Shown here: one piece after another, positions 37,984 through 53,615 of the stretch
Layout: each line of letters starts with the position of its first letter
Position numbering within the stretch: the stretch's first letter is position 1
Assembly (NCBI RefSeq): GCF_017837635.1
Contig: NZ_JAGJRS010000021.1
Coordinates: 124,001 to 188,000, forward strand
DNA length: 64,000 bases
Source: Frateuria flava
GTDB taxonomy: Bacteria; Pseudomonadota; Gammaproteobacteria; Xanthomonadales; Rhodanobacteraceae
Direction of reading: 5' to 3'
Notes under the pieces: model-generated
The model's input: the letters and a program-made list of their open reading frames with translations, nothing else
Database searches by the model: none
What the model was told of the DNA's origin: nothing
Program-made: the position numbers and the translations under genes

Positions 37984-38736
37984 ATGGAGACCGCGCTCGC
38001 CGCCGAATACCGCCGCCTCTGCGAAAGCCCCGATACGCGCCAGCCGCTGGCTTACCTGCGGCTGCGCCGGGCGATCCGCACCGTGGTCGAACACCGCGAC
38101 ATCGAACCGGGCCAGGCACTGCCCAGTGAGCGCGACCTGTCGCACGCGCTGGGCCTTTCGCGCGTGACCGTGCGCAAGGCCATCGCGGGCCTGGTCGAGG
38201 AAGGCCTGCTGACCCAGCGCCACGGCGCCGGCACGTTCGTCGCCGAACGCATCGTCAAGCCGATGTCGCGGCTGACCAGCTTCACCGAGGACCTGCGCGC
38301 GCGCGGCCTGAACCCCCGCTCGGAATTCTTCGAGCGCGGCATCGGCGAGGTGACGCCGGAAGAGGCGATGGCGATGAACCTCTCGCCCGGCGCGGCCGTG
38401 GTACGCCTGCACCGCGTGCGCTACGCCGGCGACGAGCCGCTGGCGATCGAGCGCAGCGTGGTGCCCGCCAGTGTGCTGCCCGATCCGATGGCCGTGCGCG
38501 ATTCGCTCTACGAGGCGCTGGAACAACGCAACGCCCGCCCGCGCCGCGCACTGCAGCGCCTGCGCGCGGTGTCGCTGAGCGCCCAGCACGCCCGCCTGCT
38601 GCACGTGGCCACCGGCAGTGCCGGGCTGAGCATCGAGCGGCGCAGCTTCCTCGACGACGGGCGCGTGGTGGAATTCACAAGCTCGTGGTATCGCGGCGAC
38701 ATCTACGACTTCGTGGCCGAGCTGCATACGGACTAG
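37984..38736 (+). CDS. GntR-family regulator, HutC subgroup (UTRA domain)
   Basis: The 250-residue regulator has a winged-HTH (about 20-85: PSERDLSHALGLSRVTVRKAI, LLTQRHGAGTFVAE) and a UTRA effector domain (about 95-245) like HutC/NagR/PhnF proteins. These respond to small metabolites, often sugar phosphates. It diverges from the Entner-Doudoroff operon, the likely target. The start at 37984 has no strong ribosome binding site. The effector might be KDPG, 6-phosphogluconate or a hexosamine phosphate; the sequence does not decide. Confidence 0.9.
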   Translation: METALAAEYRRLCESPDTRQPLAYLRLRRAIRTVVEHRDIEPGQALPSERDLSHALGLSRVTVRKAIAGLVEEGLLTQRHGAGTFVAERIVKPMSRLTSFTEDLRARGLNPRSEFFERGIGEVTPEEAMAMNLSPGAAVVRLHRVRYAGDEPLAIERSVVPASVLPDPMAVRDSLYEALEQRNARPRRALQRLRAVSLSAQHARLLHVATGSAGLSIERRSFLDDGRVVEFTSSWYRGDIYDFVAELHTD

Positions 38737-38784: not shown

Positions 38785-40386
38785 ATGACGACCACTGGCC
38801 ATTCCGTATCGCTCGACACGTTGCGCGAGCGCGTCCGAACCTACCTGGAGCAGGAGCAGTGGCCTGCCGCGCAGGCGACGCTGGAGACGATCCTCGGGCA
38901 CGCCCCGAATGATCTGGCATGCAGTCTCCAGCTGGCGGACCTGCTCTATCAGCAAGGTCATCTGCAGGCCTCGACCTTGCCCCTGCTACGAGCGCTGAAT
39001 CGCCTGCCGAAAGATGCACCCTTGATCGTCGCCCTGATCCAGCGACTGGTCGGCCGGGGAGAGATCGTGGCGGCCCGCGCCTGCCTGGATCTGCTGACGC
39101 AGGCCCCCGATCCGCCCGCCCACGTCGTGTTGGCGCAAGCGAAGATGCGGTTCATGATCGGCGAGTTCCGGGAGGCACTCCAGCTGGCCGAAAAAGCAGT
39201 AAGCGCAGGCGTGGAAACACCCGAAGCGGCGCGTCTGTATGGCATGTTGCTGCAATTCAACGGGCGCATGGCCGAGGCCTGCGACATCCTGGAACAAGCG
39301 CTGGAGCGCTGGCCTGATTTCGGCGATGCGGCGCCCGCCCTGGTCGATATGCGCAAGCAGACTCCCGAGGCCAATCACCTGCCCCGGCTGCGCGAGCAAC
39401 TCGAGCGCCTGCCGGAACAGCCCGCGGACCCGGACCAGGCGTTCGCGCGGGCCGAGTTCGAATATGCCCTCTTCAAGACGCTGGACGATCTGGGCCGTTA
39501 CGACGAGGCGTGGCTGGCGCTGTCGCGCTGCAACACGCTGATGTCCCACCTGAATCCCTATCGTCCTTCGGTGCAGGAAGCCTTGACGGACGCACTCGTC
39601 GACCTGCCGGTGGAACCGGACACGGCAGCCGCTCAAGCCCCGGCTTTCGAGGGGCCCATCCCTATCTTCATCGTCGGCATGCCGCGTTCAGGCACCACGC
39701 TGCTCGACCGCATCCTGTCGAGCCATTCCAGGGTGGCGTCGGCAGGCGAGATCGGCGACTTCTGGCGGCAATTGCACTGGATGGCCGATGTCATTCCGGA
39801 CCAGGCCGACGGGTTGCTCCGCGTCACCGGCCGAGTCCGCCAGATCGACTTCCACCAGTTGGGGCTGCGCTACCTGCGGCAGACGCAGTGGCGAGCGGAA
39901 GGCCGACCGTATTATGTCGACAAGCTGCCCGGCAACATCCAGTTGATAGCGTTCATCCGCCGCGCGTTGCCGCATGCGCCGATCCTGCACATGGTCCGCG
40001 ATCCGATGGACACCTGCTTCTCCAACTTCAAGGCCATGTTCGGCAACATTTCGCCGCACACGTATGAGCTTGGCGCGATGGCGCACTACTACGGGCAATA
40101 CGCCCGGCTGGTCAGCCATTGGCACAAGGCCTTGCCCGGCGCCATGCTGGATGTCCATTACGACCAACTGGTGCTTGATTCGGCCGCGACCATTCCACGC
40201 GTGCTCGCCCATTGCGGGCTTGAGGTCGAAGAAGCCTGCCTGCGTCCGGAAAGCAACGCCGCGCCAGTGGCCACGCGAAGCACACCTCAGGTCCGCGAGT
40301 CCATCCATACGCGGGGGCTGGGCGCCTGGCGTCACTATGAAAGCCAGCTGGAGCCGCTGCGCGAGGCGCTTGCCGGGCCGCGCTGA
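38785..40386 (+). CDS. TPR-containing sulfotransferase, copy 1
   Basis: A 533-residue cytoplasmic protein has N-terminal TPR helices (about 10-250) followed by a PAPS-dependent sulfotransferase domain. The 5'-phosphosulfate loop is GMPRSGTT at 298-305. Other conserved blocks are SRVASAGEIGDFWRQL, YYVDKLPGNIQLIAFIRRAL and ILHMVRDPMDTCFSNFKAMF, the last including the 3'-phosphate site region. Related TPR-sulfotransferases have no known acceptor; protein tyrosine sulfation (as by RaxST) is one possibility. It is the first of three paralogues around two Oar-like receptors. Confidence 0.9.
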   Translation: MTTTGHSVSLDTLRERVRTYLEQEQWPAAQATLETILGHAPNDLACSLQLADLLYQQGHLQASTLPLLRALNRLPKDAPLIVALIQRLVGRGEIVAARACLDLLTQAPDPPAHVVLAQAKMRFMIGEFREALQLAEKAVSAGVETPEAARLYGMLLQFNGRMAEACDILEQALERWPDFGDAAPALVDMRKQTPEANHLPRLREQLERLPEQPADPDQAFARAEFEYALFKTLDDLGRYDEAWLALSRCNTLMSHLNPYRPSVQEALTDALVDLPVEPDTAAAQAPAFEGPIPIFIVGMPRSGTTLLDRILSSHSRVASAGEIGDFWRQLHWMADVIPDQADGLLRVTGRVRQIDFHQLGLRYLRQTQWRAEGRPYYVDKLPGNIQLIAFIRRALPHAPILHMVRDPMDTCFSNFKAMFGNISPHTYELGAMAHYYGQYARLVSHWHKALPGAMLDVHYDQLVLDSAATIPRVLAHCGLEVEEACLRPESNAAPVATRSTPQVRESIHTRGLGAWRHYESQLEPLREALAGPR

Positions 40387-40678
40387 CCGTAGGCTCCGGC
40401 TCGCCGGCCCTGGCGCGCCGAGCGTGTGCCCTTGCGGTTGCCTACCACCGGCCGTCTACGTTTGGTCGTTCTCCGACGCAGCGAGAGGCACGCCACTGAT
40501 AGAGCCGGCATGGCTGCGGATGCCGCGCCTGCCTTGAGTTGCGCCAGGCATGTACGGCGGACATCCGTCCGCAAAGGCACCCCTCTTCACCTGCGCTGGC
40601 CAGGCACCGAAGCCGCCCGGGCCTTGGACGAAGCGCAAGCACATCGCTGCCAATGGCACGGCAACGCGGCTCGGGGTG
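40387..40678. other. Gap between convergent genes
   Basis: About 290 bases hold no supported gene. Only the terminator at its right edge was recognised. Confidence 0.5.
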
Positions 40679-40712
40679 AAAAAAAAATGCCACCGGTCTT
40701 GCGACCGGTGGC
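40679..40712 (-). terminator. Intrinsic terminator of the first Oar-like receptor
   Basis: On the minus strand a 10-base-pair stem GCCACCGGTC-GCAA-GACCGGTGGC is followed by A and a run of T, 27 bases after the receptor stop codon. This is a classic Rho-independent terminator. Confidence 0.9.
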
Positions 40713-40738
40713 TCTGGGGTTGGATCAACCGCTATCTA

Positions 40739-43700
40739 TCAATAGTCGTAGCTCACCGACAGGCGCACGTAGCGGGGCGGCTCGAACGTCACCGGCGTGT
40801 GGAACTGGTTGTCGATGAAGCCCGGATCCGTATCCCGGGTCGGGTAGGTCTGCGTCGCGCGCTGCTCGTTGAGCAGGTTGAAGACGTCCAGTTTGAAGGC
40901 AAGCTTGTGATCGGCGAAGGCGGGCATGTACTGCATGCCGACGTTGATCTGCTTGGTCCACGGCGTGTGCGTTTCACCCGGCGGCGACTTGCGGCCACCG
41001 CACCAGTGGTAATCCGGACCGTAGGCTGTCGGGTCCTGGTCGGCGGTCGGGCCGTAGTAGCCCAGGCACGACTCGGCCACGCCCGACTGGATCAGGGCGG
41101 TTCCGGAGACCAGCCATTCCGGCGTGAACGAGTAGGCGCCACGGATGCGGAGCTGATGCTTGCGCACGTTGAACAGCTCGCCGTTCTGGCCATCCATCAA
41201 CTGCCAGGCATCCCAGTCCTCGGTCTTGGACACGTCGCCCTGACCGAAGTCCGAACGCACCTGGCCTTCGGTGTTGCCGAAGCCACGCGAGTAGGTGTAG
41301 TCGACGCGAGCCTGCCACTTGCCGTCGAACGGATGCTCCAGGTACAGGTTCAACGAACCGGTCTTGCGCTTGACACCCTGGGTGAAGCCCCAGTCCTCCT
41401 GGGTCATCGACACCAGCTGGTCGGGCAGGCCGCTGCCTTCGTCCGCCCGGATCAACATGGTGTTGGTCTGGCCCGGGTTGATCAGGCGGCAGTACGCAGG
41501 ACCGAGCAGCGAGTTGTAGTAGCCGCTGTTCACGATGGCGAGATAGTTGTCGTAGGTGTACTCGCCGCCCGGCGCGATGCCCATCTTTCCGGCAATGCGG
41601 TACGGGCTGCACTCGTCGTCGATGGCGGTCTTCAGATCACGCCACATGGCCTTCGCGCCGTAGTTCCAGTTGTCGTTGAGCTGCTTGTCAAAGCCGACGA
41701 TGAACTCGTCCAGGTACTCGGGCTTGAGGTTGCGCGCAGTGACCTGCTCCGGATCCTTCGGCAGGCCGAACTCGCCATCGGGGGAGACCAGGCCGCCGAC
41801 GGGGGTCAGGCCCTGCGGAATGCCGTTGGCATCCACACTGGTGTAGTCGTAGGTCTGCCAGGTGTACGTCGATATGTTGGCCGCACGTTCGGCGGCGTTG
41901 TCCGGCAGCGCGAGATAGTAGCGGCCCACGTTGCCGTAGACCTTGAACGAGGAGTCGCCGTTGACGTCCCAGCTGACGCCGATGCGCGGCTCCCACTGGT
42001 TCTTCATGTCGACGAAGGCATCGCCGCGATCGTTGTAATTGGTGAAGTGGTCGTTGCGCAGACCGACCTTCAGCAGGACGTTGGGCGAGACCTGCCAGGT
42101 ATCCTGGATGTACCACGCCTTCTGATCCATCGACATGCTGGTCTGCCAGCCGATCTTGTACTGGCGCACCGTGCCATTGGAGCGGTAGGACCAGAAGTAG
42201 TCGATCGCCGGATTGAACGGGTTGATCTGCGACTGGCCCTGGTTCGTGGCCTCGTAATGCATGTTGTCGATACCGACGGCCAGGTCGTGGTCACCCAGGC
42301 GGTAATCGAAGTCGACGCGCAGACCATGGGTACCGTTGGTGGCGTCACTGGAAAGCCAACTGCTGTTGGTCTGGCTGTTGCTGATGCCGGTCGCCGGGGT
42401 ACCCGCGGGAACCTTGGTCGGGTCCTGGTACTGCGGGTTGGAGATGAACGGCAGTTCGCTGCGGTTGCCGTAGATGTTCGGATTCTTGAAGTCGGCCTTG
42501 CCGTAGACGATGCTCAGCGTCGCATTGTCGGTGATGTAGCTGGTGAAGTGGCCGATGTAGAAGTCGGCATTGTCCTTGGTGATGTCGTTGGGCGCGGCGA
42601 ACGCACCCGGGCTTAGCGTGGCGTAGTCGAAGTAGTAGGTCGAGCCGGTGCCGGTGGTCTGGTTGTTCTTCAGCGCGGTCAGCTCAAGAACATTGTTGTC
42701 GGTAATGTTCCAGTCCAGCTTGCCGTAGAACTTGGTGTTCTTGTCGCGGTTGTAGGAGACGCGCTCGGTGGTGTCGGTACCGACCGTGGTGTAACCGGTC
42801 TTGGTGGTTTCGGCGGCCAGGAACATGAACAGCTTGTCCTTGATCAGCGGACCGCCCAAGTAGGCCGAATAGACCGTTTCCCATTGTTTGTTGTCACTGC
42901 GGTACTGATGCAGCGCACCCACCAGGTCCGGATCCGCCCACTGGTACTCGAGGGCGCCCGTCGGCGGCGGCAGCGCGCCACTGGCGTAGTAACGGTTGCG
43001 CGGGCTGGCCTGCAGGTACTTCGGTTCCCACACGACCTGGCCACCAAAGTGCCATTCGTTGGTGCCTCGCTTGCCGATCTGGTTGATCACGCCGCCGTCG
43101 GAACGACCGTACTTGGCGTCGTAGCCGCCGGTGAGGGTTTCCTGCTGGTCGATCGCGCCATAGGGGAGCTGGAAGCCGCCGATGTTGCGGTATGGCTCGC
43201 CGGTGTTGTAGCCGTTCACGTAGTAAGCGTTTTCGGAGACGCTCGAACCACCGAAGGCCACGGCGTTGGCAAAGTAGCTGCTGCCCTTCACGGTTCCCGG
43301 AGCGAGCAGCGCGATGGCCTCGGCGCTACGGGTCACCGGCAGCTTCTGCAGGTCGGCTGCGGTGATGATCGTGCTGGAGTTGACGCTGGTGACGTCGATG
43401 GCGGGCAACGCGCTGGCGACCACCTGCACGGTGCCGAGGTTCTGCGCATTGTCCGCGGTCGCGGCCGCAAACGGCACCTGGGTGCCGGCGCCTGGCGAAA
43501 CGCCCACGTTTTCCTGCGTAGCGAGTACCTGGCCATCCTTGCGCAGGGTGACCGTGTAGCGACCCACCGGCACGGTGACCGAATAGCGCCCGCTCGCATC
43601 CACCGCTACTTCACGGGTAGCGCCTCCGGCGCCTTGGACGACGACGGTCTCGCCGGCGGCGACCGGAGCGGTACCGAAGATGGTGCCGGTAGTGGACTGG

Positions 43701-43798
43701 CCGTGCGCGAGGCCGGTCAGACCCAATCCCAGGGCCAGGGCCACGGTCAACGCGGTCGGGCGTGGCAATGCCCCATGCAGTTTATGAAGCTTGTTCAT
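40739..43798 (-). CDS. Oar-like TonB-dependent outer-membrane receptor, copy 1
   Basis: The 1019-residue outer-membrane protein has a signal peptide (PTALTVALALGLGLTGLAHG), an N-terminal carboxypeptidase-regulatory-like beta domain (about 35-115), a plug (about 125-250: SSTIITAADLQKLPVTRSAE, GGYDAKYGRSDGGVINQIGKR) and a large beta barrel ending in RYVRLSVSYDY. These features define Oar-like TonB receptors. In Myxococcus, Oar is implicated in secretion of a protease; other homologues have unknown cargo. It closely resembles the receptor at 48065-51136. A -35/-10 pair lies about 145 bases upstream. Confidence 0.92.
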   Translation of the reverse strand: MNKLHKLHGALPRPTALTVALALGLGLTGLAHGQSTTGTIFGTAPVAAGETVVVQGAGGATREVAVDASGRYSVTVPVGRYTVTLRKDGQVLATQENVGVSPGAGTQVPFAAATADNAQNLGTVQVVASALPAIDVTSVNSSTIITAADLQKLPVTRSAEAIALLAPGTVKGSSYFANAVAFGGSSVSENAYYVNGYNTGEPYRNIGGFQLPYGAIDQQETLTGGYDAKYGRSDGGVINQIGKRGTNEWHFGGQVVWEPKYLQASPRNRYYASGALPPPTGALEYQWADPDLVGALHQYRSDNKQWETVYSAYLGGPLIKDKLFMFLAAETTKTGYTTVGTDTTERVSYNRDKNTKFYGKLDWNITDNNVLELTALKNNQTTGTGSTYYFDYATLSPGAFAAPNDITKDNADFYIGHFTSYITDNATLSIVYGKADFKNPNIYGNRSELPFISNPQYQDPTKVPAGTPATGISNSQTNSSWLSSDATNGTHGLRVDFDYRLGDHDLAVGIDNMHYEATNQGQSQINPFNPAIDYFWSYRSNGTVRQYKIGWQTSMSMDQKAWYIQDTWQVSPNVLLKVGLRNDHFTNYNDRGDAFVDMKNQWEPRIGVSWDVNGDSSFKVYGNVGRYYLALPDNAAERAANISTYTWQTYDYTSVDANGIPQGLTPVGGLVSPDGEFGLPKDPEQVTARNLKPEYLDEFIVGFDKQLNDNWNYGAKAMWRDLKTAIDDECSPYRIAGKMGIAPGGEYTYDNYLAIVNSGYYNSLLGPAYCRLINPGQTNTMLIRADEGSGLPDQLVSMTQEDWGFTQGVKRKTGSLNLYLEHPFDGKWQARVDYTYSRGFGNTEGQVRSDFGQGDVSKTEDWDAWQLMDGQNGELFNVRKHQLRIRGAYSFTPEWLVSGTALIQSGVAESCLGYYGPTADQDPTAYGPDYHWCGGRKSPPGETHTPWTKQINVGMQYMPAFADHKLAFKLDVFNLLNEQRATQTYPTRDTDPGFIDNQFHTPVTFEPPRYVRLSVSYDY

Positions 43799-44406
43799 TT
43801 AGCAATCTCCCCAAAGCGGCAGTCAGCCGGGCCATGAAAGTCCTGGCAGAAGAAAGGCCAAACCCATGCTCCAAACCGACATCGCTGCGACAGGTGTCGG
43901 CACCCCAGCGGGTTTTAGGCCGCAGCCAACATTCGGCTGCGGCCTGAAGCTAGCTCTGCCCGAGATGGAGTGTCAACTTTTTTTTAATCATCTCACTGTT
44001 CATGAGATGGTTATATTTGTGGAGAGATCGTGAAGTAAGTCCCCGTTGCTAGGGGATTTTTTGATTCGGAAGGGCAATCGCATTTTATAAATGAGTTAAG
44101 CGATGCGTAGCCCAACCGTTCTGGCCGGACGTGATCGCCTGTCATTTTTAACGAACGAAGATCTGACCGCATGCGGCAGCGGTTTTTTCTCCGTGTACAA
44201 GGGCGGCCAACGGTGGCGTGAGATTGGCCGCGCTGAAAATCGATTGGCTGCGCAACGCGGGACTTTCTTTCCGTTCTTGGCGCCCGGCTCCGGCTGCGTC
44301 CGCGGTCTATCCGTCGACCCCGCATGCGCAACCGCCATCGCCCCCACTGGCACGCTTTCAACCCCCGACGCCAAAGCCATTGTCGATGCCGCCGTTGCCT
44401 GCGTAC
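43799..44406. other. Upstream region of the first Oar-like receptor, with AT-rich patch
   Basis: About 610 bases. It contains the receptor promoter and an AT-rich stretch (43972-44100) with a plus-strand CCCC-GTTGCT-AGGGGATTTTTT terminator-like hairpin near 44041-44062. The remainder to 44406 shows no convincing gene: a plus-strand open frame from 44103 runs into the antisense of the sulfotransferase and has no recognisable domain. Confidence 0.5.
43947..43976 (-). promoter_or_regulatory. Promoter of Oar-like receptor copy 1
   Basis: On the minus strand TTGACA (43976-43971) is separated by 18 bases from TAGCTT (43952-43947). The same arrangement precedes the paralogous receptor. The inferred 5' untranslated region is about 143 bases. 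Confidence 0.6.
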
Positions 44407-45993
44407 TTAAGCAAGCGCCCGCTGCAAAGGCCCCAGATATTTTGCGTAGTGCTGCCACTCTCCCATGGAACGGGAGTGAATGGGCTCGCGTACCTGCGCG
44501 CTGCTCTGCGTGGCTACCGGGTCCGTATTGCGCTCCGGATGAAGGCATCCTTCCTCCGGATCCAGACCACAATGGACCAGCACCCGGTCAAGCGTCTTTC
44601 GAGGTTCAGTGACGAGTGCGGCGTAGGACACATCGAGCATGACGCCCGGCAATGCAGCGCGCCAATGATCGGTAAGCCGCGAGTACTGTTTGTAGTAATG
44701 CGCCAGCGCTTGCTGCTCGTAGCAATAGGCCGACGCATTGCCAAACATGACCTTGAGGTTGGAGAAACACACATCCATGGGGTCACGCACCATGTGCAGG
44801 ATGGGCGCGTGCGGCAACGCGCGGCGGATGAACGGCACCATGCGCACGTTGATGGGCAGCTTGTCGATGTAGAACTGGCGGCCGCGCGCGCGCCAGGCTG
44901 TCTGGCGGATATAGCGCGCACCAAGTTCCGCAAAGTCGATATCGACCGCTCCTTCGATCATCCGCAGGAGACCCTGCACGCCTGCCGGAGGAGCATCGGT
45001 CATCCACCGGAGCTGGCTCGGGAAATCGTTGATCTCACCCGCGGAGGTCACCTGCGAATGGGCCGCGAGCATCTGGTTGAGCAGCGTCGTTCCCGATCGC
45101 GGCATCCCTACGATGAAAATGGGTGTGGGACCGGCCGGTGGCCGCAGCGCCGCTGGGCGATTCGTCAGTTCGCGCGAAGCCTTGATGAGCGCATCGATCG
45201 CCGCCACTTCGCCCGACTCATTGTAGGGATTGAGTTTGTGCATGAGCGCATTGCTGCGCTCCAGCGCAGCCCACGCCTCGTCGTGAGACCCCAGATCGTC
45301 AAGCACCTTGAATACGGCTGATTCGAATTGCGCGCGAACGTAACTCGCGCGCGCCCCATCGGGCGCTGGAAGCCGGTCGAGGCAACCACGCAACAGATCC
45401 AGGTGATTGGCTGCGGACGTCTGCTTGCGCAGGTTCACCAGCATGACGGCGGCGTCGCCCAGGTCGGGCCAGCGCTGGAGGCAACTGGCCAGAATCCCCT
45501 CCGCGTCGACCAACTTTCCCGAGCAACGCAACAGCATGGCATGGAGATACCGGTCGTCAGCCCGGTCCACCCCTGCGGCGACCGCTCTTCCCATCAGGGA
45601 GGTTGCGCTCGATACGTCCCCGATCATCCAGTGCAGGTGCGCCTGCTCGGCGAGAACCGACGCCGGCGGATGGGGGGCGCGGGCCAGGTGATCCAGGCAG
45701 GCGCGCGCCGCCTCCACTTCGCCAAGCATCAGCAGGCGAACCGTCAATTGCGCGATGAGGGGAACATGGTTGGGCAGCAAGGGCACGGCATCCAGCAGTT
45801 GTCGGCTTGCCGCCTGCAACCGGCCCTGCCGAAGCAGAACGCTGGCCATCTGGATACGTGTGGGCACGTCGCCCGGGGTGCGCTGCAGCAAGGATTCCAA
45901 TGCCGCTCTTGCCGCGTCCCATTGCTCGGCGTCCATGTGGAATTGGGCCTGGCGCCTGAGTTCCGTGATTGCCGCCGTGCTGTTTTCTGTCAT
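44407..45993 (-). CDS. TPR-containing sulfotransferase, copy 2
   Basis: The 528-residue paralogue of the protein at 38785 has TPR helices up to about residue 250, PAPS loop GMPRSGTT at 296-303, FYIDKLPINVRMVPFIRRAL and HMVRDPMDVCFSNLKVMF. The C-terminal CLHPERNTDPVATQSSAQVR segment is conserved among the three copies. The Met at 45993 was chosen; Met eight codons upstream (46017) is equally possible and neither has a clear ribosome binding site. It lies on the same strand as and 175 bases after the third copy. Confidence 0.9.
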   Translation of the reverse strand: MTENSTAAITELRRQAQFHMDAEQWDAARAALESLLQRTPGDVPTRIQMASVLLRQGRLQAASRQLLDAVPLLPNHVPLIAQLTVRLLMLGEVEAARACLDHLARAPHPPASVLAEQAHLHWMIGDVSSATSLMGRAVAAGVDRADDRYLHAMLLRCSGKLVDAEGILASCLQRWPDLGDAAVMLVNLRKQTSAANHLDLLRGCLDRLPAPDGARASYVRAQFESAVFKVLDDLGSHDEAWAALERSNALMHKLNPYNESGEVAAIDALIKASRELTNRPAALRPPAGPTPIFIVGMPRSGTTLLNQMLAAHSQVTSAGEINDFPSQLRWMTDAPPAGVQGLLRMIEGAVDIDFAELGARYIRQTAWRARGRQFYIDKLPINVRMVPFIRRALPHAPILHMVRDPMDVCFSNLKVMFGNASAYCYEQQALAHYYKQYSRLTDHWRAALPGVMLDVSYAALVTEPRKTLDRVLVHCGLDPEEGCLHPERNTDPVATQSSAQVREPIHSRSMGEWQHYAKYLGPLQRALA

Positions 45994-46168
45994 GAGGAGA
46001 AGGCTACTCAACGCCATGGGGTTCGACAAATGTGTCTGCCGCCTTATCCCAGCATGGCGGCGTGCCGCCGGCTGCGATACGCGGTATGCGCTCTTTCGAC
46101 GTCGTGGCATGCACGAAGCGCGTGCATGCCATGGGAGGCGCGCCGCATGGGCTCGTTTCGGCTGATGG

Positions 46169-47809
46169 TTACTTGCGAAACCGCATGGCGTGCAAATGGC
46201 GGTCAAGCGCACTCTGCAGACCGGAAAGCTGGGTGGCGTAGTTGCGCCATTGGCCAACCGCGCGAGTGTGGACCGGTTCGCGCACCTGCACGCTGCTGGG
46301 CGTTGCAACAGGCGTCGCGTTCCGTTCCGGAGACAAGCAGCCCGGTTCGAGTTCGAGGCCGCAATAGTCAAGAACCTGGCGAAGGATAACCTCCGGCTGC
46401 TGCACCAGCGCGGCATACGAAACATCCAGCATGGCTTCGGGCAAGGCCGTCCGCCACCGGTCTGCCTGGCGCGCATACTGGGCGTAGTAGTGGGCCATGG
46501 CGTCGATATCGTAGCTATAGGCCGAGACGCTGCCGAACATGGCCTTGAGATTGGAGAAGCAAACATCCATCGGCTCACGCACGATGTGCAGGATGCGCGC
46601 ATGCGGAAGCGCGCGCCGGATGAAGGGCACCATCTGTATGTTGGACGGCAACTTGTCGGCGTAATACGGGCGTCCCTCCGCTCGCCATTGGGTCTGCTTG
46701 AGGTAGCGCGCGCCCAGGTCCGCGAAATCGATCCTGCCCACGCGCTCGACCGCCTTTGCAAGCGCCCGTGCACCTCCCGGCGCGACATCGGCGGCCCAGA
46801 GAAACTGACGTTGGAAATCATTGATCTCGCCCGCTGAAGCCACGCGAGAATGATTTGAGAGCATGCGTTCCAGCAACGTCGTGCCCGATCGCGGTAGGCC
46901 GACGATAAAAACCGGCATTGGGCCCTCTGCGTGCCCCACGGCGCTCGCGGCCGGCGCAACAGCGGCGGGTGCGCTGATGAGCGCCTGGGTAAGCGCCTCT
47001 TCCGCGGCGGCATCGTAGGGATTGAGCGCCTGCATCAACCCATTGCTGCGCGCCAGGGCGGGCCACGCCTCGTCGTAACGTCCCAGATCGTCCAGCTCCT
47101 TGAAGAGCGCAGCCTCGAATTCCGCCCTGACAAGATTGTCGCCACGATGACGGCTACCGACGGGGATGCGAGCCAACTGCGCGTGCAGGAAATCGAGATG
47201 TTGCGTTTCGGGCGTCTGCTTCTGCACATTCGCCAGCGCCATGGCAGCGCCTCCGAACAGCGGCCATCGGCGCAGGCAAGCCTCCAGCACCTCCCTGGCG
47301 GCAACCAGCTCGCCGCTGTACTGCAGCATCATGGCGTGCTGAAGATGGGCGTCCGGCTCGTCCGCGCCCTCGGCGATGGCGCGCTCGATCAGGCTCCTCG
47401 CCGGGTCGATTTCGCCAAGCATCCACCAGAGCCTCGATTGCTCCGCGAGCACCTGGGCGGGTTGTTCGCCAATCGCAGTGAAGCGTGAAAGGCAGGCGCG
47501 GGCGGCCAGCGTCGCTCCGCCGGTGAACAAGCCACGCACGAGCTCGATCATCGTGCCGACATCATCCGGTGGTGTCTTGGCGACATGCATCAGCTGCTCG
47601 GTCGGGGCACGCAGCTGCCCCTGCCTGAACATGACGTTGGCCAGCCCCATGCGCGCCCACGCATCATGCGGTGCCAACTGTACGAGTGACTCCAGCGTCG
47701 CCTGCGCGGCAGCCCATTGCTGCGCGTCCATGTACTGCTGGGCACGACGGCGTCGCCGATCCTGTGCCATCGAAAGATTGGGTGTGTTCATCGAAGCGGG
47801 ATTGTCCAT
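46169..47809 (-). CDS. TPR-containing sulfotransferase, copy 3
   Basis: The 546-residue paralogue has TPR helices (RRRAQQYMDAQQWAAAQATLES onward), PAPS loop GLPRSGTT at 304-311, YYADKLPSNIQMVPFIRRAL and HIVREPMDVCFSNLKAMF. It differs from copies 1 and 2 by Leu in the PAPS loop and RE for RD in the 3'-phosphate block. It is downstream of the second Oar-like receptor, whose terminator separates them. Start codons at 47809 and 47791 are both possible. Confidence 0.9.
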   Translation of the reverse strand: MDNPASMNTPNLSMAQDRRRRRAQQYMDAQQWAAAQATLESLVQLAPHDAWARMGLANVMFRQGQLRAPTEQLMHVAKTPPDDVGTMIELVRGLFTGGATLAARACLSRFTAIGEQPAQVLAEQSRLWWMLGEIDPARSLIERAIAEGADEPDAHLQHAMMLQYSGELVAAREVLEACLRRWPLFGGAAMALANVQKQTPETQHLDFLHAQLARIPVGSRHRGDNLVRAEFEAALFKELDDLGRYDEAWPALARSNGLMQALNPYDAAAEEALTQALISAPAAVAPAASAVGHAEGPMPVFIVGLPRSGTTLLERMLSNHSRVASAGEINDFQRQFLWAADVAPGGARALAKAVERVGRIDFADLGARYLKQTQWRAEGRPYYADKLPSNIQMVPFIRRALPHARILHIVREPMDVCFSNLKAMFGSVSAYSYDIDAMAHYYAQYARQADRWRTALPEAMLDVSYAALVQQPEVILRQVLDYCGLELEPGCLSPERNATPVATPSSVQVREPVHTRAVGQWRNYATQLSGLQSALDRHLHAMRFRK

Positions 47810-47995
47810 TATCGAAGGCGCCTGCGTCCGGCTCCGGAGCCGTTCCGTTGAGCGCGCGCCGGCCGGGCTGGCGGCTCCGGGCAGTATTGCCCGTCCAAAA
47901 AAGGATGGGTCTTTGGGCGAATATCACCCGCGGCAGGGCCTGCCGTCGAAAGCTTCTGTCGGTGCCGACCGCATCGCGTTGCCGAACGCGAAAGG

Positions 47996-48027
47996 AAAAA
48001 AAAGGCGCCACCTTTTCAGGTGGCGCC
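47996..48027 (-). terminator. Intrinsic terminator of the second Oar-like receptor
   Basis: On the minus strand a GGCGCCACCT-GAAA-AGGTGGCGCC stem is followed by eight T, 38 bases past the receptor stop codon. The remaining spacer to 47809 shows no other element. Confidence 0.92.
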
Positions 48028-48064
48028 TTGGCGAATCTAACTGCGGATTCGCTTACTGGCCTGA

Positions 48065-51000
48065 TCAGAAGTCGTAAGACACCGACAGACGCATGTACCG
48101 CGGCGGATCGAAGTAGAGGCCCTGACCGTAGGTGTTGGACACCGTGAAGACGGACGAGCGGCTCTCCGAGCGCGGGTCAAGCTGCAACGGCTTCTGCTCG
48201 TTCAGCACGTTGTACACCTCCAGCTGCAGAGCGAGCTTGCCGTCTGCGAACGAGGGGGTGTAGCGCACACTGAGGTTCAGCTTCTTGGTCCACGGCGTGA
48301 AGCCCGTGTCGCCGAGCCTGGACGGCTGGCCGAAGCAGAAGTGGTAGTCCGAACCGTAACCGGTCGGATCCTCTTCGTTCGGGCCGTAGAAGCCAAGGCA
48401 CTCCTTCGGCGTACCCGACTGCGCCAGCAGGACGCCCGACACCAGCCACTCAGGCGTGAACTGGTACGCACCGCGGATGCGGATCTGATGGCGACGGTCG
48501 TTCGACAGGTAGCCGTTGCCGTACTGCATCAGCTGCCACGAATCCCAGTTCTCGGTCTTGGAGACGTCGCCCTGGCCAAAGTCCGAACGCACCTGGCCTT
48601 CCGTGTTGCCTTCGTTCTTCGACCAGGTGTAGTCGATGCGACCCTGCCACTTGCCATCGAACGGATGCTCGAGGTACAGGTTCACGCCCTTGTAGGTGCG
48701 CTTGGCCTTGTAGTCGTAGCCCCAATCGGCGCCCGTCATGGTCACATTGGTGTAGGTGCCATCGACGTCGCTCTTGAGCGCGAACGTGTTGGTGCCACCC
48801 GGGTTGAACAGACGGCAGTACGGGTTGACCAGCGCACCGTAATAGTCGTCCGGGTTCAGGCCCATCGACTCGAGCTTGGGCACGAGGCTGCCGAACGGAT
48901 CGCACTCGTCGTCGATCGCGGTCTTCAGTTCGCGGTAGGTCACCTTCGCGCCGTAGACCCAGTCCGCACCCAGCGTCTTGTCGAAGCCCAGGATGTATTC
49001 ATCCTGGTACTGAGCCTTCAGGTCGAGTGCCGAAACCTGACGGGCGTCCTTGGGATCGCCGGTCTCGAAGTTCGAGGACACGGGGCCCGGGCCGGCCGGA
49101 TTGCCGTCAGCCGAGGGAACCGGCGTGAGGTTCAGCGGGATACCGTTCGAATCCATACCGCCATAGGTGTAGTACTGGCGGGTGAAGGTCGAGCGGTTGG
49201 CCGCGCGCTCGGCGACGTTGTTCGGCAGCGCGAGGTAGTAGCGGCCGGCGTTGCCGTAGACCTTGAAGCTCGAGTCGCCGTTGACGTCCCAGCTGGCGCC
49301 CAGACGCGGCTCCCACTGGTTCTTTTCGTCGACGAAGGCAATGCCGAGGTCGTTGTAGTTGGTGAAGTGGTCGTTACGGACGCCGATGTTCAGCTGCAGG
49401 TTGTCGGTGACGTTCCACACGTCCTGCAGGTAGTACGCCTTCTGGTCCATCGTCATGCTGGTCTGGACGCTGAAGATGTACCTGGCGACGTAGTAACCCT
49501 CACCACCCGGGGCGCCGACGTTCAGCGTCGTGCTGATGTTCCTGGAGGGATTGGCCGCATGCGAGTAGATCCAGGCGTAGCCCGGGCCGGACATGGTCTG
49601 GCCCTGGTTCTTGGCCGTGTACTGCATGTTGTCGATACCGACGGACAGGTCGTGGTCACCCAGGCGGTAATCGAAGTCGACGCGCAGGCCGTCGGTGTGA
49701 TTGGCCGCATCCGGCGAATACACGTAGAAGCCGCTCTGGTCGTTGGTGACGAACGGGCCACCGTACGCCGGGTTCTGGTTGGCCGAGCCCGAAATCGCCG
49801 GAAGTTCGCTCTTGTTTCCGTAGACGACCGGGTTCTTGAAGTCGCCCTTACCGTAGGTGACGCTCAGCGTGGCGTTGTCACCGATGTAGCTGGTGTACTT
49901 GCCGATCAGGAACTGGGCCTCGTCCTTGTTCACGTCGTTGACGTAGGAGAAGGGCCCGGAGGTCAGCGTGTCGTAGTCGAAATCGTACGCCGCACCGCTG
50001 CCCGTGCTCTCCTCGCTCTTCAGACCGGTCAGCTCGAAGACGTTGTTCTCGTCGATGTTCCAGTCCAACTTGCCGTAGAAGTGCGTCTCGTGGTTGCTGT
50101 AGTAAACGTCGTTACCACCGATGGACTGGATATTGCGTCCCTTCGTCTTGTTGGTCTCGGCCGACACGAACAAGTACAGCTTGTCCTTGATCAGCGGACC
50201 GCCGACGTAAGCGGAGTAGATCGTTTCCCAGCTCTTGTTCTTCTGCTTGTAGCGGTACAGCGTGCCTTCCAGCTCGGGGTTCTCAACCGCATAGCCCGCC
50301 GGAAGCTCGCCGAAGGTCGGGTAATAGACGTTCTTGCCACCTTCGGCAAGGAAACGCGGCGCCCAGGCGATCTGGCCACCGAAGTGCCATTCGTTGGTGC
50401 CACGCTTACCGATCTGGTTGATCACGCCGCCATCGGAGCGACCGTACTTGGCGTCGTAGCCGCCGGTGAAGGTCTGCTGCTGGTCGATCGAACCGTACGG
50501 CAGGGAGAAGCCGCCCGTGTTGCGGTAAGGCTCACCGGTGTTGTAGCCGTTGACGTAGTACGCGTTCTCGGTAACGCCAGCGCCACCGAACGACACGGCA
50601 TTGCCAAAGAAGCCACTGCCCTTGACCGCGCCAGGAGCAAGCAGCGCGATCGATTCGGCGCTACGGCCCACCGGCAGCTTCTGCAGGTCGGCGGCAGTGA
50701 TGATGGTGCTGGAGTTGACGCTGGTGACGTCGATGGCGGGCAGCGCGCTGGCGACCACCTGGACCGCGCCCAGGTTCTGCGCGTTTTCTGCATTGGCAGT
50801 GCTGAAGGAGACGGACGTACCACCGCCCACGGCGATGCCGACGTTGTCCTGGGTCGCGAGGACCTCACCGTCCTTGCGCAGGGTGACCGTGTAGCGGCCG
50901 ACCGGGAGGCCGTTGACGACGAAGCGGCCGTCCGCGTCAACCGCGACTTCGCGGGTGGTGCCGTTCGTGCTCTGCACCATGACAGTCTCGCCGGCAGCGG

Positions 51001-51136
51001 CCGGAGCCGTGCCGAAGATGCTGCCGGTTGTGGCCTGGCCGAAGGCCACACCAGTGAAGCCCAGACCCATGGCCAAAGCCAGCGTCAGGGCAGTGCGACG
51101 GGGCTGAGCCCCACGCAGCATGTAACCCTTGTTCAT
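48065..51136 (-). CDS. Oar-like TonB-dependent outer-membrane receptor, copy 2
   Basis: The 1023-residue paralogue of the receptor at 40739 has a signal peptide (RRTALTLALAMGLGFTGVAFG), the carboxypeptidase-regulatory-like domain, the plug with SSTIITAADLQKLPVGRSAE and GGYDAKYGRSDGGVINQIGKR, and a barrel ending in YMRLSVSYDF. Long stretches of the two proteins are identical or nearly so, but extracellular-loop-like parts differ. That suggests the same machinery with different ligands. A promoter of the same design lies about 180 bases upstream. Confidence 0.93.
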   Translation of the reverse strand: MNKGYMLRGAQPRRTALTLALAMGLGFTGVAFGQATTGSIFGTAPAAAGETVMVQSTNGTTREVAVDADGRFVVNGLPVGRYTVTLRKDGEVLATQDNVGIAVGGGTSVSFSTANAENAQNLGAVQVVASALPAIDVTSVNSSTIITAADLQKLPVGRSAESIALLAPGAVKGSGFFGNAVSFGGAGVTENAYYVNGYNTGEPYRNTGGFSLPYGSIDQQQTFTGGYDAKYGRSDGGVINQIGKRGTNEWHFGGQIAWAPRFLAEGGKNVYYPTFGELPAGYAVENPELEGTLYRYKQKNKSWETIYSAYVGGPLIKDKLYLFVSAETNKTKGRNIQSIGGNDVYYSNHETHFYGKLDWNIDENNVFELTGLKSEESTGSGAAYDFDYDTLTSGPFSYVNDVNKDEAQFLIGKYTSYIGDNATLSVTYGKGDFKNPVVYGNKSELPAISGSANQNPAYGGPFVTNDQSGFYVYSPDAANHTDGLRVDFDYRLGDHDLSVGIDNMQYTAKNQGQTMSGPGYAWIYSHAANPSRNISTTLNVGAPGGEGYYVARYIFSVQTSMTMDQKAYYLQDVWNVTDNLQLNIGVRNDHFTNYNDLGIAFVDEKNQWEPRLGASWDVNGDSSFKVYGNAGRYYLALPNNVAERAANRSTFTRQYYTYGGMDSNGIPLNLTPVPSADGNPAGPGPVSSNFETGDPKDARQVSALDLKAQYQDEYILGFDKTLGADWVYGAKVTYRELKTAIDDECDPFGSLVPKLESMGLNPDDYYGALVNPYCRLFNPGGTNTFALKSDVDGTYTNVTMTGADWGYDYKAKRTYKGVNLYLEHPFDGKWQGRIDYTWSKNEGNTEGQVRSDFGQGDVSKTENWDSWQLMQYGNGYLSNDRRHQIRIRGAYQFTPEWLVSGVLLAQSGTPKECLGFYGPNEEDPTGYGSDYHFCFGQPSRLGDTGFTPWTKKLNLSVRYTPSFADGKLALQLEVYNVLNEQKPLQLDPRSESRSSVFTVSNTYGQGLYFDPPRYMRLSVSYDF

Positions 51137-51317: not shown

Positions 51318-51347
51318 AACGTAGCGTCGCTACTAACGGAATGTCAA
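51318..51347 (-). promoter_or_regulatory. Promoter of Oar-like receptor copy 2
   Basis: On the minus strand TTGACA (51347-51342), an 18-base spacer and TACGTT (51323-51318) reproduce the arrangement upstream of copy 1. The inferred 5' untranslated region is about 175 bases. Confidence 0.6.
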
Positions 51348-51419
51348 CCTTTTGTTAGCACTTTTCGGCAATGACCATTGCGGTTGGGGAGCCTTGGCTT
51401 TCCGCGTTAACATTCCGCC

Positions 51420-51618
51420 CGTTTTGGGTGTCCCTTGGGTCATGCCACGGGATGAAACGGGAAGCCGGTGCGTTGTGCAATCCACAACAAGGCCGGCGCT
51501 GCCCCCGCAACGGTAAGCGAGTCGAACGGACGGCCCACGCCACTGTGCTTGAAGCATGGGAAGGCGCCGCCCGGCAGGCCTCTGGCCTGCGCCCGCGAGC
51601 CCGGAGACCGGCCCGAAG
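51420..51618 (+). ncRNA. Cobalamin (B12) riboswitch
   Basis: The conserved core of the AdoCbl aptamer is visible in order: CGGGAAGCCGGTG (51458-51470), the B12 box GCTGCCCCCGCAACGGTAA (51498-51516), CGCCACTG...GGGAAGGCG, and the closing CCCGGAGACCGGCC at 51600-51614. It precedes btuB by about 150 bases and is expected to lower btuB expression when cobalamin is present. Exact ends are approximate. Confidence 0.93.
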
Positions 51619-51764
51619 CGTTGCCTGGTGGACCTGCGGTGGGCGGGCCGGACCTCGTGCGTGGCCCTGTGCCTGCCCGTCGTTCCTCCCCCTGCCGCCG
51701 GCCGACCAGCTCATCCACGCTTGAGGCCGTGCGTGGGCGCGCGGCCAAGGACACACACCACACC

Positions 51765-53615
51765 ATGAAGAAGACCCTGCTCGCCGCCGCGTTGTGCGGC
51801 AGCTCGTTCGCCGCACTGGCGGCCGACGCCACGGACCCGGCCGCGCTGTCGCCGGTGATCGTCACCGCCACGCGCACGGCGATCACCGTGGACGACGCGC
51901 TGTCGTCGGTCAGCGTGATCACTCGCGAAGACATCGACCGGCTGCAGCCGGTCTCGCTGATCGACCTGCTCCAGGGCCTGCCCGGCGTGACCTTCGCCCA
52001 GGCCGGCGGGCTGGGCCAGCAAAGCTCGCTGTTCCTGCGCGGCACCAATTCCTCGCACACGCTGCTGCTGATCGACGGCGTGCGCGTCGGCACCGTGAGC
52101 GCCGGCATCCCCGCCTTCGACCAGCTGCCGCTGGACCAGATCGAACGCATTGAAGTGGTGCGCGGACCACGCTCGAGCCTTTATGGCGCCGATGCCATCG
52201 GCGGTGTGATCCAGATCTTCACCCGGCACGGACCGCGCAACGGCAGCCTGGCGCCGTCCATGCGCCTGGGCACCGGCAGTCGCGGCTACGCGGACGGGCA
52301 GTTCGGCCTGGCCGGGGGCGACACGCACGCCTGGTACAACCTGAGCATCGGCGGCCAGTACACCCGCGGCATCAATGCCTGCCGCGTCGGCGCGGGCACC
52401 GTCTTCGCCGGCTGCTTCACCGACGAGCCGGATGCCGACGCCTACCGCAACCGCAACGCACTGGCCAACGCCGGTTACCGCTGGGGCAACGGCACCGAGC
52501 TGAGCGCGACATGGCTGCGCAGCGACAGCCGCGTGGAGTTCGACGGCGCGCCCTACGGCAACCAGCATCACAACCGCCAGCAGGTCGCCGGCGCGCAGCT
52601 GGGCTTCGCTCCGCTGGCGGCCTGGAAAGTCACGCTGGCTGCCGGGCAGAGCCTGGATGAGCAACGTACCGACAACGACGGCGTGTTCGTGCGCTACGGC
52701 GATTCGCGCCGCAGCCAGGCCTCCTGGCAGAACGACCTGAGCCTGGCGGACAACCAGTTGCTGACGCTCGGCATCGACTGGCAGCGCGAGCACCTCTCCA
52801 GCGACACCGGTTATCTGGACGACAGCCGCAGCGACACCGGCGGCTACGCGCAGTACCAGGGCAGTTTCGGTCGCCACGAAATCCAGCTGTCCGTGCGCCG
52901 GGACGACAACCAGCAGTTCGGCGGCCACACCACCGGGGCAGCGGCGTGGGGCTATGCCTTCGACCACGGGCTGAAATTGTCGGCCAGCTGGGGCAGTGCG
53001 TTCCACGCGCCGACCTTCAACGACCTGTACTACCCCTACGGCAGCGGCAACCCCGACCTGCAGCCGGAGGCTTCGCGCAGCGCCGAACTGGGGCTGGCGC
53101 AGCAGCAGGCCGCCTGGCATTGGGCACTGAACGCCTACCAGACCACCATCGATCAGCTGATCTCGCTGGACGCCAACTACTTCCCGCGCAACGTCAGCCG
53201 CGCGCGCATCCGTGGGCTGGAGGCCCAGGCGGGCACCGAGCTGGCGGGCTGGCGGGTGGAGGGCTACCTGACGTTGCAGCGTCCGGAAAATCGCGACGGC
53301 GGCGCCAACGATGGCCACCTGCTGCCGCGCCGCCCGGAACGCACCGCGCGGGTGGAGCTCGACCGCCGTTTCGGCGCGTTCGGCGTGGGCGCCACCGTAT
53401 TGGCTGCCGGCGACCGCTATGACGATCTGGCCAACCTGCACCGGCTGGGCGGCTATACCACCACCGACCTGCGCGCCAGCGTCGCCTTCGCGCGCGGCTG
53501 GCAACTGGAGGCGCGGCTGGCGAACGCGTTCGACCGGCGTTACGAGACGGTGTACTACTTCAACCAGCCGGGGCGGAGCTGGTACCTGACGCTGCGGTAC
53601 ACGCCCGGGGGTTGA
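51765..53615 (+). CDS. btuB: Vitamin B12 outer-membrane TonB-dependent receptor BtuB
   Basis: The 616-residue cobalamin importer of the outer membrane has a signal peptide (MKKTLLAAALCGSSFAALA), TonB box LSPVIVTATRT, plug domain (IDLLQGLPGVTFAQAGGLGQ, SSLFLRGTNSSHTLLLIDGV, VVRGPRSSLYGADAIGGVIQ) and a barrel ending RSWYLTLRYTPGG. Length is close to BtuB of enterics. The cobalamin riboswitch in its leader confirms the assignment. No BtuCDF or cobalamin synthesis gene is nearby. Confidence 0.95.
   Translation: MKKTLLAAALCGSSFAALAADATDPAALSPVIVTATRTAITVDDALSSVSVITREDIDRLQPVSLIDLLQGLPGVTFAQAGGLGQQSSLFLRGTNSSHTLLLIDGVRVGTVSAGIPAFDQLPLDQIERIEVVRGPRSSLYGADAIGGVIQIFTRHGPRNGSLAPSMRLGTGSRGYADGQFGLAGGDTHAWYNLSIGGQYTRGINACRVGAGTVFAGCFTDEPDADAYRNRNALANAGYRWGNGTELSATWLRSDSRVEFDGAPYGNQHHNRQQVAGAQLGFAPLAAWKVTLAAGQSLDEQRTDNDGVFVRYGDSRRSQASWQNDLSLADNQLLTLGIDWQREHLSSDTGYLDDSRSDTGGYAQYQGSFGRHEIQLSVRRDDNQQFGGHTTGAAAWGYAFDHGLKLSASWGSAFHAPTFNDLYYPYGSGNPDLQPEASRSAELGLAQQQAAWHWALNAYQTTIDQLISLDANYFPRNVSRARIRGLEAQAGTELAGWRVEGYLTLQRPENRDGGANDGHLLPRRPERTARVELDRRFGAFGVGATVLAAGDRYDDLANLHRLGGYTTTDLRASVAFARGWQLEARLANAFDRRYETVYYFNQPGRSWYLTLRYTPGG

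Follow-up and report, generated by a model that had tools for sequence, protein, structure and literature searches.

To our knowledge, hardly any protein sulfation has been described in bacteria, RaxX being the main example. In Xanthomonas oryzae, the bacterial sulfotransferase RaxST sulfates this small precursor polypeptide before it leaves the cell through a type I exporter (PMC6637879). Methanobactin operons encode a sulfotransferase, MbnS (PF00685), together with a TonB-dependent transporter, MbnT, and MbnS has been proposed to modify the RiPP precursor MbnA (PMC3621798), while a table of protein clusters from Pontixanthobacter places sulfotransferase and aspartyl beta-hydroxylase clusters beside lasso-peptide B2, PqqD and asparagine-synthase clusters (PMC10040529). 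On the receptor side, Oar of Myxococcus xanthus and the Ton system are required for secretion of the protease PopC (PMC6434023). An earlier note on the DNA considered here knew of no described system built from sulfotransferases and Oar-like receptors; given the methanobactin and Pontixanthobacter precedents, that was too strong. The more specific association of TPR-sulfotransferases (TPR-STs) with TonB receptors is real and apparently undescribed: no description of it was found in the literature searched, where subscription journals are thinly covered.

The interval between positions 38785 and 51136 of the window (the whole stretch of 64,000 nucleotides that was analysed) contains only five called genes, in the order ST1, OarA, ST2, ST3 and OarB, none of which has an internal stop at the coordinates given in Table 1. 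Pfam assigns TPR repeats and Sulfotransfer_3 (PF13469, E ~1e-45) to each of the three STs, and CarboxypepD_reg, Plug and OMP_b-brl_4 to both Oars. ST1, ST2 and ST3 all have an intact 5'-PAPS loop, PRSGTTL. Pairwise identity is 52-53% among the STs and 59% between OarA and OarB, so that both sets are old paralogs; open reading frames, domains, loops and identities all bear out the earlier description of three paralogous TPR-STs with intact PAPS loops and two paralogous Oar-like receptors. The predicted barrel of OarB matches TonB-dependent transporters. GC3 is lower in the STs (0.75-0.80) than in their neighbours (0.87-0.94). A GntR/UTRA regulator adjoins ST1, and related genomes likewise have it beside an ST, usually with an Oar. 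On the other side, a cobalamin riboswitch (51409-51630, plus strand) lies upstream of btuB (51765-53615), divergent from OarB, and intergenic DNA matching this riboswitch recurs beside the Oars of related genomes.

Table 1. Coordinates of genes and candidate signals in and around the interval, numbered from the first letter of the window.
Feature	Position	Strand	Description
GntR/UTRA regulator	37984..38736	+	adjoins ST1
ST1	38785..40386	+	TPR-sulfotransferase, 533 aa; TPR superhelix ~residues 10-272, TPST-like domain ~286-533
Terminator-like site 3' of OarA	40689..40712	-	intrinsic; 10-bp GC-rich stem and T run
OarA	40739..43798	-	Oar-like TonB receptor, 1019 aa; CarboxypepD_reg, Plug and barrel
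Promoter-like TTGACA-18-TAGCTT, OarA	43947..43976	-	-178 from ATG; long leader
ST2	44407..46017	-	TPR-sulfotransferase, ~536 aa; start is ATG 46017 or a few codons downstream
ST3	46169..47809	-	TPR-sulfotransferase, 546 aa; ST2 on same strand, ~150 bp gap
Terminator-like site 3' of OarB	48002..48029	-	strong, intrinsic; 12-bp stem and T run; between OarB and ST3-ST2
OarB	48065..51136	-	Oar-like TonB receptor, 1023 aa
Promoter-like TTGACA-18-TACGTT, OarB	51318..51347	-	-211 from ATG; long leader

Both receptor genes share a promoter layout, TTGACA-18-TAxxTT, as the earlier note had pointed out, and this likeness is real: across the surveyed loci the same layout stands upstream of 8 of 50 Oars, compared with 16 of 2007 genes. 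A generic sigma-70 scan did not report the OarA and OarB sites because it requires a stricter -10. Strong intrinsic terminator-like sites follow both Oars on the minus strand, and OarB is therefore probably not co-transcribed with ST3-ST2 save by read-through. Given these terminators, a single operon of STs and Oars is unlikely, and the receptor and ST genes of the window look, from their flanking signals, like separate transcription units.

The host genome (3.68 Mb; the family includes Rhodanobacter, Fulvimonas, Oleiagrimonas and Frateuria) holds five strong TPR-STs, namely the three in the window, one on contig C38 and one on C10. The C38 gene comes immediately after those for a TonB receptor and a TPR-Asp/Asn beta-hydroxylase; the C10 gene (locus L005) is divergent from cysD-cysN, and several genomes of the genus preserve the neighbourhood on the side of this ST. 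Four of the five adjoin one of about 19 Plug-domain receptors in the genome, which is far above expectation. Sulfate activation genes are present in the host, and a second sulfate-activation set occurs with several sulfotransferase-like and glycosyltransferase-like genes at C5:104001-121000 (L007), a possible locus for surface glycan sulfation. Elsewhere, on C6 (L003, 9582-9965 and 10327-10596), two small proteins of 127 and 89 aa consist of the Oar N-terminal CarboxypepD_reg domain alone; they show 41% identity to the OarB N-terminus, and the first has a signal-like N-terminus.

Is this proximity a peculiarity of one genome? We surveyed about 160 loci, mostly from Rhodanobacteraceae: 80 named loci plus 79 regions of that family, each no longer than 20 kb, picked by similarity to the sulfotransferases and not by their receptor neighbours. 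Among the neighbours of 222 distinct TPR-STs, a receptor occupies offset -1 in 20.5% and offset +1 in 26.6% of cases, falling to ~13% two genes away and to 0-5% at offsets 5-8. Considering only neighbours that are not themselves STs, 105 of 331 adjacent genes (32%) are TonB/Oar receptors, compared with 27 of 915 (3%) at offsets 5-8, an odds ratio of 15 which, like Fisher's p, ignores phylogeny, so that counts on the tree are the safer measure. On a tree of 218 STs, the presence or absence of a near receptor changes state 36 times, and hence the linkage was gained or lost many times, while the Oar/other state changes 16 times. Once a gene is further than three positions away from any ST, it has a receptor neighbour in just 1.7% of cases. 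The receptor HMM missed some receptors (two recovered by Pfam in the family survey and two more in the class survey), and adjacency is therefore underestimated. The co-location first seen in a single interval is thus an instance of co-occurrence beyond chance that recurs across lineages: ST1-3 belong to a group of Lysobacterales TPR-STs that is kept beside large outer-membrane receptors. Some genomes from other families of Gammaproteobacteria (G062, G056, G083 and G148) show the pairing too, but there it is far from universal.

Adjacency is neither obligatory nor tied to one class of receptor. The nearest non-ST neighbour is a receptor for 133 of 218 STs, leaving ~39% for which it is not, so that the function of these enzymes cannot depend on adjacency; STs are also found alone. 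Partners within 600 bp are more often other TonB receptors (57) than Oars (36), and within one ST subfamily of 64 members the partner is an Oar in 27 cases and another TonB receptor in 20, which makes the TPR-ST the constant element and the partner the variable one. Of 105 pairs, 79 have the ST 3' of the receptor gene. Conversely, genomes with many Oars (15 each in G014 and G036, 12 in G015 and eight in G007) have no Sulfotransfer_3 match at E 1e-20, and therefore Oar function in general needs no such ST, while six genomes (G006, G018, G020, G021, G024 and G029) carry STs and no Oar at E 1e-100. With each occurring without the other and most receptor partners not of Oar type, we reject a co-occurrence that is specific to Oars.

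Partners other than TonB receptors include an autotransporter, which adjoins one TPR-ST outside Rhodanobacteraceae, and large NIDO/DUF4394 or DUF7933 proteins. A TPR-Asp/Asn hydroxylase is found in eight ST loci, six of which also have a receptor, and ST loci contain genes for 2OG-Fe(II) oxygenases as well. Some loci are islands of four to seven TPR-STs (L074, L080, L175, L176 and L188); those at L074 and L080 include a receptor and a TPR-Asp hydroxylase, and those at L176 and L188 precede a large DUF7933 or NIDO/DUF4394 protein.

What might these enzymes act on? In the AlphaFold model of ST1 (pLDDT 95), a TPR superhelix is joined to a sulfotransferase domain whose best matches are human TPST1/TPST2 and a tick TPST (Z 19.2-19.7; for TPST1, Z 19.7 and rmsd 3.0 A over 236 residues). 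Sulfotransferase domains of polyketide synthases (Z 15.5) and the heparan sulfate 3-O-sulfotransferases (Z 12.7) score lower. For the TPR half, the match is to the superhelix that TPRs form in O-GlcNAc transferase (OGT; Z 13.8). Searching by sequence leads to the same enzymes, the sulfotransferase structures found being protein-tyrosine sulfotransferases (E 1e-8). Across 61 aligned STs the catalytic and PAPS positions are almost invariant (Glu322 in 61, Arg301 in 60, Lys380 in 59 and Arg405 in 60). The TPST arginine two residues after the catalytic Glu, which we take to be the position that binds acidic peptides, is not conserved (G324 in ST1; N, Q, P or I in others), and the classical specificity for acidic tyrosines is therefore doubtful and should not be assumed. 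There is no N-terminal hydrophobic segment and PAPS is cytosolic, which would place the STs in the cytosol. ST1-3 are likely to be cytosolic, PAPS-dependent polypeptide sulfotransferases.

If the receptors were sulfated on acidic tyrosines, such residues might be more frequent where an ST is at hand. Relative to 19 Oars of four genomes that lack these STs, the 24 Oars compared from the ST-linked clade are not enriched in tyrosines in acidic context (5.9 per protein in the clade vs 7.5), and total tyrosine is not higher either (6.0 vs 6.6%). Receptor sulfation on acidic tyrosines thus finds no support, the counts being slightly the reverse of expectation. A stretch of OarB (742-780), DDEC...YCRLxNPG, with a Cys pair and a Tyr, characterises the ST-linked Oar clade and is missing from most Oars of ST-less genomes, a distribution that is confounded by phylogeny. 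A locally encoded precursor peptide was also rejected as client: the intergenic regions near STs contain no conserved small ORF, and the recurrent matches there were only cobalamin-riboswitch DNA and chance short ORFs.

Gene content, predicted fold, catalytic residues and non-random adjacency in many lineages are what the data show; a polypeptide substrate and the following order of events are inferred. The OGT-like TPR superhelix of ST1-3 probably holds an extended polypeptide, which the TPST-like domain would sulfate in the cytosol with PAPS; this client might be the neighbouring receptor, still unfolded on its way to Sec, or a peptide or protein that the receptor carries across the outer membrane, and in some loci the TPR-Asp/Asn hydroxylase may modify the same client. 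We put the probability that each TPR-ST sulfates such a polypeptide before export at roughly 45%. The autotransporter, NIDO/DUF4394 and DUF7933 partners are consistent with an exported-protein client and, because non-receptor exported proteins also occur as partners, we slightly favour the receptor itself over its cargo. The earlier note had read the co-location as sulfation of a receptor, its cargo or a surface glycan; the recurrent association and the TPST-like enzyme lend weight to that idea in outline, whereas a link to Oars in particular and an acidic-tyrosine form of receptor sulfation did not hold up.

The same neighbours could instead serve a small ligand, with the TPR-ST (and an Asp-hydroxylase or 2OG oxygenase) tailoring a ribosomal peptide or siderophore-like molecule that the adjacent TonB receptor imports or exports, as in methanobactin. 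This is possible, if unlikely: it can draw on the precedent of MbnS and MbnT (PMC3621798), on the Pontixanthobacter sulfotransferase and aspartyl beta-hydroxylase clusters near lasso-peptide clusters (PMC10040529), on the TPR-Asp-hydroxylase and 2OG-Fe(II) oxygenase genes of ST loci and on the partner usually being a receptor, but it sits poorly with the lack of a precursor-like small ORF near STs, with an interval of five genes that has no other biosynthetic gene, and with a partner that is an autotransporter and not a receptor.

No functional link would be needed at all if TPR-STs and TonB receptors shared a hot spot for integration or duplication. In that scenario we might well see STs preferentially 3' of the receptor gene, GC3 below that of the neighbours, a constant syntenic position next to GntR in many genomes, and solitary STs, all of which are observed. 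However, the association arises at many places, involves various classes of receptor and subfamilies of ST, reaches into further families of Gammaproteobacteria and all but vanishes for genes over three positions away from any ST, and we therefore consider a shared hot spot improbable. About equally improbable is that ST1-3 sulfate LPS, capsule or exopolysaccharide, the receptors being unrelated neighbours or glycan importers. Carbohydrate-acting sulfotransferases are common in related families, and the C5 cluster combines sulfate activation with sulfotransferase-like and glycosyltransferase-like genes; yet that cluster is already a possible glycan-sulfation locus, no glycosyltransferase or polysaccharide gene lies in the interval or beside it, and the catalytic domain is closer to protein-tyrosine than to heparan sulfotransferases.

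Sulfation of a polypeptide before export, the reading we prefer, could be part of something larger: a protein-sulfation pathway widespread among bacteria, whose TPR-TPST-like enzymes, often multicopy and sometimes accompanied by TPR-Asp/Asn hydroxylases, would modify outer-membrane receptors and other surface proteins while these are still in the cytosol awaiting export, altering interactions with ligands, phages or TonB. We consider this extension rather unlikely as it stands. If the client is the receptor, sulfation would be a new means of controlling nutrient uptake, protein secretion and the entry of phages and bacteriocins. The repeated pairing of TPST-like enzymes with TonB receptors provides directly testable enzyme-client pairs in cultivable soil bacteria, whether it is outer-membrane proteins or their cargo that become sulfated.

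How, then, does the locus relate to known systems? O-GlcNAc transferase and SPINDLY likewise join a TPR superhelix to a transferase that acts on intracellular polypeptides, although they transfer sugar and not sulfate, so that the analogy is one of layout only. With TPST1/TPST2 of animals and the tick TPST, ST1-3 have in common the predicted fold, the PAPS loops and the catalytic Glu and Lys; they differ in being bacterial, in having no membrane anchor, in their fusion to a TPR superhelix and in not conserving the peptide-binding Arg, and transfer to tyrosine is a candidate activity of the STs. OarA and OarB share the N-terminal CarboxypepD_reg, Plug and barrel with M. xanthus Oar (PMC6434023) and the Xanthomonas Oar-like TBDRs (PMC1790865), and the passages searched on these proteins make no mention of a sulfotransferase. 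Unlike RaxST-RaxX, the interval has neither a small precursor peptide nor a type I exporter, and the partners of the STs are TonB receptors. Methanobactin operons differ in their mbnA and mbnB, which the interval lacks, and in a sulfotransferase of PF00685 where ST1-3 match PF13469 best and carry TPRs, but they too combine a sulfotransferase gene with the gene for a TonB-dependent transporter.
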